Shown: piece after piece, positions 40,846-54,890 of the stretch
How the letters are laid out: the number at the start of each line of letters is the position of its first letter
Position numbering within the stretch: the first letter of the stretch is position 1
Source of the DNA: Sulfurovum sp. TSL6
Lineage (GTDB): Bacteria > Campylobacterota > Campylobacteria > Campylobacterales > Sulfurovaceae
Assembly: GCF_019972115.1 (NCBI RefSeq)
Contig: NZ_BPFJ01000002.1
Coordinates: 186,001-250,000, forward strand
Length of the DNA stretch: 64,000 nucleotides
Direction: 5' to 3'
Notes under the pieces: model-generated
The model's database searches: none
The model's input: only the letters and a program-made list of their open reading frames with translations
Told to the model about the DNA's origin: nothing
Translations under genes and position numbers: made by a program

Positions 40846-40921
40846 GACCTTTTAGCTCAGTTGGTAGAGCAACTCCCTTTTAAGGAGTGGGCCCATGGTT
40901 CGAATCCATGAAGGGTCACCA
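40846..40921 (+). tRNA. tRNA-Lys (anticodon TTT), copy 1
   Basis: 76 nt including encoded CCA. Acceptor GACCTTT pairs with AAGGGTC. Anticodon stem ACTCC/GGAGT holds loop CTTTTAA. TTCGAAT T-loop present. Identical to the copy at 41070. Confidence 0.97.
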
Positions 40922-40938
40922 CTATTATTTTTTTAGGT

Positions 40939-41015
40939 GCGGTGGTAGTTCAGTTGGTTAGAATACCTGCCTGTCACGCAGGGGGTCGCGAGTTCGAGTC
41001 TCGTCCACCGCGCCA
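40939..41015 (+). tRNA. tRNA-Asp (anticodon GTC), copy 1
   Basis: 77 nt with encoded CCA. Acceptor GCGGTGG pairs with CCACCGC. Anticodon loop CTGTCAC. TTCGAGT T-loop. Identical to the copy at 41509, including a short upstream TTAGGT. Confidence 0.97.
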
Positions 41016-41069
41016 TTATATTTGAAGCAGACTTCAGCAGTCGGCTCATGAAACCAAGTTTCATTTTAT

Positions 41070-41145
41070 GACCTTTTAGCTCAGTTGGTAGAGCAACTCC
41101 CTTTTAAGGAGTGGGCCCATGGTTCGAATCCATGAAGGGTCACCA
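41070..41145 (+). tRNA. tRNA-Lys (anticodon TTT), copy 2
   Basis: Identical over its 76 nt to the first tRNA-Lys. Different 5' flank: a 54-base spacer containing a CTTCAGCAG stretch shared with 43239. Confidence 0.97.
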
Positions 41146-41160
41146 CTATATATATTCTTT

Positions 41161-41236
41161 GGTCGCTTAGCTCAGTTGGTAGAGCGCTACCCTTACAAGG
41201 TAGATGTCACAAGTTCGAGTCTTGTAGCGACCACCA
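41161..41236 (+). tRNA. tRNA-Val (anticodon TAC), copy 1
   Basis: 76 nt with CCA. Acceptor GGTCGCT pairs with AGCGACC. Anticodon stem CTACC/GGTAG holds loop CTTACAA. Confidence 0.97.
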
Positions 41237-41268
41237 TTTTTAACAATTTTATGTTTATGGTTCTTGAT

Positions 41269-41344
41269 GACCCTTTCATCTAGTGGCCAAGGATATTACG
41301 TTTTCAACGTAAAAACAGAGGTTCAAATCCTTTAGGGGTCGCCA
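41269..41344 (+). tRNA. tRNA-Glu (anticodon TTC)
   Basis: 76 nt with CCA. Acceptor GACCCTT pairs with AGGGGTC (one G-U). Anticodon stem TTACG/CGTAA holds loop TTTTCAA. Discriminator base G. The only single-copy gene of the cluster. Confidence 0.95.
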
Positions 41345-41375
41345 ATCTTTCCCCAAAAATAAACATTAAAACTAT

Positions 41376-41451
41376 GGTCGCTTAGCTCAGTTGGTAGAGC
41401 GCTACCCTTACAAGGTAGATGTCACAAGTTCGAGTCTTGTAGCGACCACCA
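41376..41451 (+). tRNA. tRNA-Val (anticodon TAC), copy 2
   Basis: Identical over 76 nt to the tRNA-Val at 41161. Confidence 0.97.
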
Positions 41452-41508
41452 TGTACATTTAAGTAAATTTATGTACAATTCTTTTCAACCATTTAGTTGG
41501 TCTTAGGT

Positions 41509-41585
41509 GCGGTGGTAGTTCAGTTGGTTAGAATACCTGCCTGTCACGCAGGGGGTCGCGAGTTCGAGTCTCGTCCACCGCGCCA
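41509..41585 (+). tRNA. tRNA-Asp (anticodon GTC), copy 2
   Basis: Identical over 77 nt to the tRNA-Asp at 40939. Last gene of the array; no strong terminator seen immediately after it. Confidence 0.97.
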
Positions 41586-54179: not shown

Positions 54180-54313
54180 AATTCTGTAATTGTAGCAAAG
54201 TATGAAGAAAATATGATTAAATCTTAGTCCTAAGCTATAGTATCATGTTCATATAAGCGATAGATAGATATTATATTATCTATTATATTTAAGGCTAAAC
54301 TCATTGTGAAGTG

Positions 54314-54394
54314 AGGACAGAAAGTGATGGGTCTCAATGTAGATTGCCAAACTGCCAAATGTGCTTGATCTGCATTTGTACTTCTTTCTGTCCT
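54314..54394. ncRNA. 81-nt two-stem structured element between metH and the PAS gene
   Basis: A perfect 11-bp outer stem AGGACAGAAAG (54314-54324) / CTTTCTGTCCT (54384-54394) encloses a 12/8-base internal loop. An 8-bp inner stem ATGTAGAT (54337-54344) / ATCTGCAT (54368-54375) follows. The 23-base terminal loop contains GCCAAACTGCCAAA, a short direct repeat. It lies in a 258-base gap between divergent starts, so it is a leader element of one or both genes, a small RNA, or a short mobile hairpin. It matches no riboswitch I recognise. Confidence 0.5.
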
Positions 54395-54437
54395 ATAACA
54401 CTTTTAATGTAACATATCTATTGTCCATGGAGAAAAA

Positions 54438-54890
54438 ATGGGAAAAACAGTTAAAAACACTATTACCGGTAAAGAAATCACAAAACCAGATCCTGTAGAT
54501 ATAGAGGTACCATTTGATGGTGGTGTGATGATTACGGAAACAGATACGGCAGGTATCATTACTTATGCTAACCGTAAATTTCGTGAACTTACCGGTTATA
54601 CAAAAGAAGAACTCATTGGATCACCACACAGTATAAACAGACATCCGGATATGCCAAAAGCAGCGTTCAAAGAGTTATGGGAAACAATAAAAGGTGGTAA
54701 CTACTGGGAAGGTTTTGTAAAAAATATGACCAGTGAAGGCAAATATTACAATGTTGTTGTGTGGATAAAACCTAAATTAGACGATGATGGCAATATCATC
54801 GGATATATTGCAGGAAGAAAAATTCCTGATAAAGACCTCATGCAAAGAGCTTTCGACAAATACAAGGTCATGAAGAATAATGAAATATAG
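54438..54890 (+). CDS. CetB/Aer-like PAS domain protein (energy or redox sensing)
   Basis: A 150-residue cytosolic protein that is essentially one PAS domain (about 28-130). The segments ITYANRKFRELTGYTKEELIG, NRHPDMPKAAFKELWETIKGG and WEGFVKNMTSEGKYY are those of the Aer FAD-binding PAS family. Campylobacter CetB, which signals with membrane protein CetA in energy taxis, has the same single-domain form. No CetA-like receptor is adjacent here. GGAG precedes the ATG by 6-7 bases. Confidence 0.85.
   Translation: MGKTVKNTITGKEITKPDPVDIEVPFDGGVMITETDTAGIITYANRKFRELTGYTKEELIGSPHSINRHPDMPKAAFKELWETIKGGNYWEGFVKNMTSEGKYYNVVVWIKPKLDDDGNIIGYIAGRKIPDKDLMQRAFDKYKVMKNNEI

Follow-up and report, generated by a model that had tools for sequence, protein, structure and literature searches.

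The window analysed here, a 64,000-nucleotide (64-kb) stretch of DNA from Sulfurovum sp. TSL6, contains a gap between two divergent genes: metH on the opposite strand and, on the plus strand, a gene for a small, redox-sensor-like PAS protein whose nearest named record is from Sulfurovum sp. AR (94% identity) and which matches the Aer PAS domain structure 8dik with an E-value of 1.5e-23. The gap holds a structured RNA that, judged by sequence and on the question of identity alone, is almost certainly a c-di-GMP-I riboswitch, lying upstream of the PAS gene and co-oriented with it (Table 1). Near the gap, the strongest promoter-like match is TTCACA-17-TATAAT (11/12) at 54282-54310; it is on the minus strand, as is metH, and falls within the sequence complementary to the aptamer. 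Elsewhere in the window a cluster of seven tRNA genes occupies 40846-41582.

Table 1. Features of the PAS gene leader, in window coordinates; Vc2 equivalents follow the numbering given in the text.
Feature	Position	Strand	Basis
c-di-GMP-I (GEMM-I) aptamer	54284..54362	+	RF01051 match 54284-54359 plus possible A-U-rich P1
Possible P1	54285-54290 / 54357-54362	+	free fold
Ligand-contact G54294 (Vc2 G20 equivalent), then C54295/U54296	54294..54296	+	alignment to Rfam model
2-bp core helix, C54295/U54296 with G54320/A54319	54295-54296/54319-54320	+	model mapping; U-A/C-G covariation
Aptamer hairpin CUCAUU-GUGA-AGUGAG, 6 bp, GNRA tetraloop (GUGA)	54300..54315	+	model mapping; 4 of 6 pairs changed on both sides
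Anti-aptamer hairpin: 11-bp outer stem 54314-54324/54384-54394 plus inner stem	54314..54394	+	folding; 0/500 shuffles as good for core-to-downstream pairing
A54321 (Vc2 A47 equivalent), ligand-contact	54321	+	model alignment; column invariant; sequestered in alternative hairpin
Second aptamer helix	54323-54325/54351-54353, 54328-54330/54347-54349, 54331-54333/54342-54344	+	model mapping; covariation
C54355 (Vc2 C92 equivalent)	54355	+	model alignment; invariant column
AUAACACUUUUAAUGU: terminator-like end, with a stem extension (CACUU paired to AAGUG) and a weak U tail	54395..54410	+	sequence, fold
Shine-Dalgarno-like GGAG of the PAS gene, with spacer	54429..54437	+	sequence
Controlled gene, 150-aa single-domain PAS protein	54438..54890	+	closest solved structure: PAS domain of the aerotaxis receptor Aer

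The identity of the aptamer is established computationally by a plus-strand match of positions 54284-54359 to the Rfam c-di-GMP-I (GEMM-I) model RF01051 at 53.7 bits (gathering score 35; E-value 1.1e-7 over 64 kb), the sole riboswitch family matched in an Rfam search of the window, with the PAS start codon 79 nt past the end of the match. The likeness to RF01051 extends to the two-helix aptamer, the GNRA tetraloop, the G, A and C ligand-contact bases and the same-strand position upstream of a gene; the differences reside in P1, which is A-U-rich and off the consensus pairs (two of three mismatched, although AUAUUU/AAAUGU pairing can still form in the free fold), and in an expression platform that invades the aptamer core. 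Model alignment gives G54294, A54321 and C54355 as the ligand-contact bases, all of the c-di-GMP type, at positions that we take to be G20, A47 and C92 in Vc2 numbering. GEMM-I riboswitches selective for cGAMP carry an A in place of the G at the G20 position, and the cGAMP variant was rejected on the G at this selectivity position (G54294). Assignment to c-di-GMP-I-GGC (RF03167), a family of the same clan, was also rejected: the window aligns to that model over its full length and some orthologues pass its cut-off, but the window's score of 53.1 bits falls below the cut-off of 59, with A, not G, at model position 37. From its sequence, the RNA would be expected to bind c-di-GMP.

The sequence-only reading that had noted an 81-nt hairpin at this site had not foreseen c-di-GMP as the ligand class. 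The two hairpins of the aptamer are present, as is its 2-bp core helix, all with covariation; across 21 aligned sequences, 98.6% of helix cells are paired over the three helices, with slid-partner controls at 27-51%, and nine of 17 aptamer pairs have changes on both sides. Scans of public genomes placed an aptamer above a gathering score upstream of the PAS gene in 23 of 43 orthologue loci, the others being without one. Four PAS orthologues lacking the c-di-GMP aptamer (L085:1340-1505, L088:1340-1505, L090:872-1037 and L094:1340-1505) share another leader, 85% conserved (GGCGGGAGAUAC...AUCUCUUGUUAC), which matched no Rfam family and is predicted to form a long stem with little covariation.

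The hairpin itself, as described earlier, is a real structure but only half of the object, the structured RNA starting upstream of it, at ~54284, with the aptamer. Its perfect outer stem was correctly placed, 54314-54324 (AGGACAGAAAG) being complementary to 54384-54394 (CTTTCTGTCCT) over exactly 11 bp, and the inner stem is seen in the fold; the folding energy of the 81-nt segment is -27.3 kcal/mol, compared with a mean of -16.0 over 200 dinucleotide shuffles (z -4.2), none of which does as well. With 11 perfect stems of at least 10 bp spanning at most 90 nt in the window, little can be concluded from the stem by itself. The stem can be extended by AAGUG (54309-54313) with CACUU (54399-54403), and its 5′ arm takes in the last part of the tetraloop hairpin, the core partners A54319 and G54320, and A54321 to G54324, such that the outer stem engages both the A47 equivalent and the partners of the 2-bp core helix. 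Because this arm lies in the aptamer core, the hairpin is, by computation, incompatible with the bound aptamer and constitutes the alternative fold of the riboswitch, which accounts for the earlier impression that it is too elaborate for a terminator. As the anti-aptamer fold, it belongs to an expression platform that serves the PAS gene (54438) and not metH; cis-regulation of the PAS gene by RNA had been among the options offered. The terminator features in the window are a strong stem and a weak U tail (CACUUUUAAUG), and a simple pattern scan for terminators finds no match there.

Beyond the aptamer, the DNA of the window and its eight closest orthologues has diverged greatly in length and sequence, and is ~16 nt shorter in three of them. 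Pairing between the core and the downstream strand was equalled by 0 of 500 shuffles in the window, 5 in L053, 22 in L054, 11 in L082, 4 in L056, 5 in L089 and 7 in L092, was kept weakly in L084 (43) and was not kept in L083 (207); seven of these nine beat 95% of shuffles, in counts that are not independent, the sequences being related. The inner stem of L089 has changed on both sides, from AAUGUAGAU:AUCUGCAUU to AAGUAGA:UCUACUU, and in several of the nine sequences ACUUUU closes the extended stem. In orthologues further away (L103, L095, L097, L087 and L117), the aptamer supplies the 5′ arm of a hairpin that is followed by a clearer U tract than in the window (UUUUUC or the like), a layout that resembles, on predicted folds, a terminator which the bound aptamer would prevent; only clear cases were used here, as the automatic search for hairpins with U tails forces the choice of tail and its ends are non-comparable for the window and some relatives.

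On balance, we favour as probable, direction included, a c-di-GMP-I riboswitch in the 5′ leader of the PAS mRNA that acts as a co-transcriptional ON switch through a terminator-like hairpin. Once the polymerase has passed 54362, the aptamer could form and bind c-di-GMP; without ligand, strand 54384-54394 would invade the aptamer core at 54314-54324 to give the long hairpin, which, extended to ...CACUUUU, most likely would stop the polymerase short of the PAS start codon. With c-di-GMP bound, the core would be locked and the hairpin blocked, allowing read-through and turning the gene ON, with the outcome decided during transcription. The minimum free energy of the leader is -36.1 kcal/mol when folded freely versus -12.1 with the aptamer pairs enforced, tertiary contacts and ligand lying outside the model; with so large a gap, any action of the ligand has to precede the hairpin, and modelling suggests that the fold is most likely chosen as transcription proceeds through the ~21 nt between the aptamer end and the 3′ arm. 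A comparable arrangement has been described in the pilM riboswitch of Geobacter metallireducens, a cGAMP-sensing GEMM-I ON switch with a mutually exclusive aptamer/terminator pair (PMC9262584). In both, the terminator fold uses a strand inside the aptamer and excludes the ligand-bound fold; they differ in ligand, pilM sensing cGAMP whereas the window has the G at the selectivity position, and in that the termination step of the window is predicted. For the window, we infer both termination by the hairpin and the ON direction.

The folding model also holds evidence against the ON direction, with a predicted opening of the Shine-Dalgarno site of 0.93 without ligand versus 0.45 with it, as would fit a translational OFF switch built on the same c-di-GMP-I riboswitch: the bound aptamer would free the pyrimidine strand 54383-54394 to pair, through UUUC-UG-UCC, with the Shine-Dalgarno region GGAGAAA, and without ligand the long hairpin would hold that strand away, leaving the gene on. 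Opening is likewise predicted to fall from 0.82 to 0.14 in L053 and from 0.26 to 0.02 in L054, but L083, L084, L087 and L117 show no such fall and most others a small one, the energy gained in the window is at most ~2.7 kcal/mol, and the U tracts that follow the hairpin in the more distant orthologues speak for termination over translational control. We consider the OFF switch unlikely and clearly prefer the ON switch to it.

That the aptamer has lost its function at the PAS gene, or answers to another cyclic dinucleotide, with the hairpin acting as a plain attenuator, appears improbable; a weak P1, the complete lack of a leader in several orthologues and a merely degenerate one in L109 are in keeping with such decay. 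Against it, each of the three ligand-contact bases is of the kind seen in c-di-GMP sensors, and close orthologues share a nearly constant aptamer core even as the remainder drifts. The position of the element in a gap between divergent genes had also raised the prospects of a metH control element responding to SAM, SAH, B12 or methionine, a free small RNA, or a miniature mobile hairpin, all of which we now hold to be very improbable. A metH riboswitch was discarded, as no SAM, SAH or B12 family, nor any other of the kind proposed, was matched by Rfam models in the window and the aptamer strand reads away from metH towards the PAS gene, which the leader accompanies in orthologues. The genomic copy number, proposed earlier as a check, dismissed the mobile hairpin, the entire element being present once, with diverged paralogues of the aptamer part only.

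Seventeen RF01051 matches, all above the cut-off, are present in the genome, which is 99.98% complete by a tool estimate and encodes 13 GGDEF and 10 EAL domain matches. At least one match was found in 56 of 61 genomes of the same genus (source genome included) and in 15 of 200 genomes sampled from the class, again including the source genome (14 of the 199 others), both multi-genome searches having used stricter filters by which weak matches are lost. Among the first open frames downstream of the other riboswitches are those for lipoprotein-like proteins, an outer-membrane-barrel-like protein, an FG-GAP repeat protein, a NIT-domain histidine kinase, a GGDEF-EAL protein and a second PAS protein, the aptamer of the last being 87% identical to that of the window over 67 nt. 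The idea that the same core-invading hairpin recurs at every riboswitch of the genome was rejected, since just one of the 16 others beats 95% of shuffles and the design is not significant in the remaining 15.

Flagellin and the MCP signalling (chemoreceptor) domain had no match in the genome, and an aerotaxis role for the PAS protein was set aside on these grounds, making a taxis role in Sulfurovum sp. TSL6 unlikely. Tentatively, Sulfurovum, in a genome without detected flagellin or chemoreceptor domain, may run a c-di-GMP riboswitch regulon of unusual size, one that sets the level of stand-alone Aer-like PAS proteins and so would link c-di-GMP to redox sensing via RNA, not to flagellar motility. 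The switch type is well known; its abundance in Sulfurovum and its use on a PAS gene look to have been little noticed, no report of c-di-GMP riboswitches in Sulfurovum, Sulfurimonas or Campylobacterota having been found in the open-access literature. What stands out here is how many c-di-GMP-I riboswitches are carried by Sulfurovum, a genus common in vents and sediments, and that they are used on stand-alone PAS genes; a previously unexplained hairpin now stands as a precise, testable regulator.

Other c-di-GMP-I loci have arrangements of their own. Tandem aptamer pairs lie upstream of one gene each at G000:C1:999782-1000086 (L039), C1:792094-792319 (L042) and C2:493685-493904 (L044), the second copy of the last being weak (38.3 bits). 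At L049:1118-1192, ~250 nt separate an aptamer from a downstream threonine synthase gene, a long gap that makes the link uncertain, and the riboswitch at L050:2016-2113 stands directly upstream of a GGDEF-EAL gene, where a feedback loop is possible.
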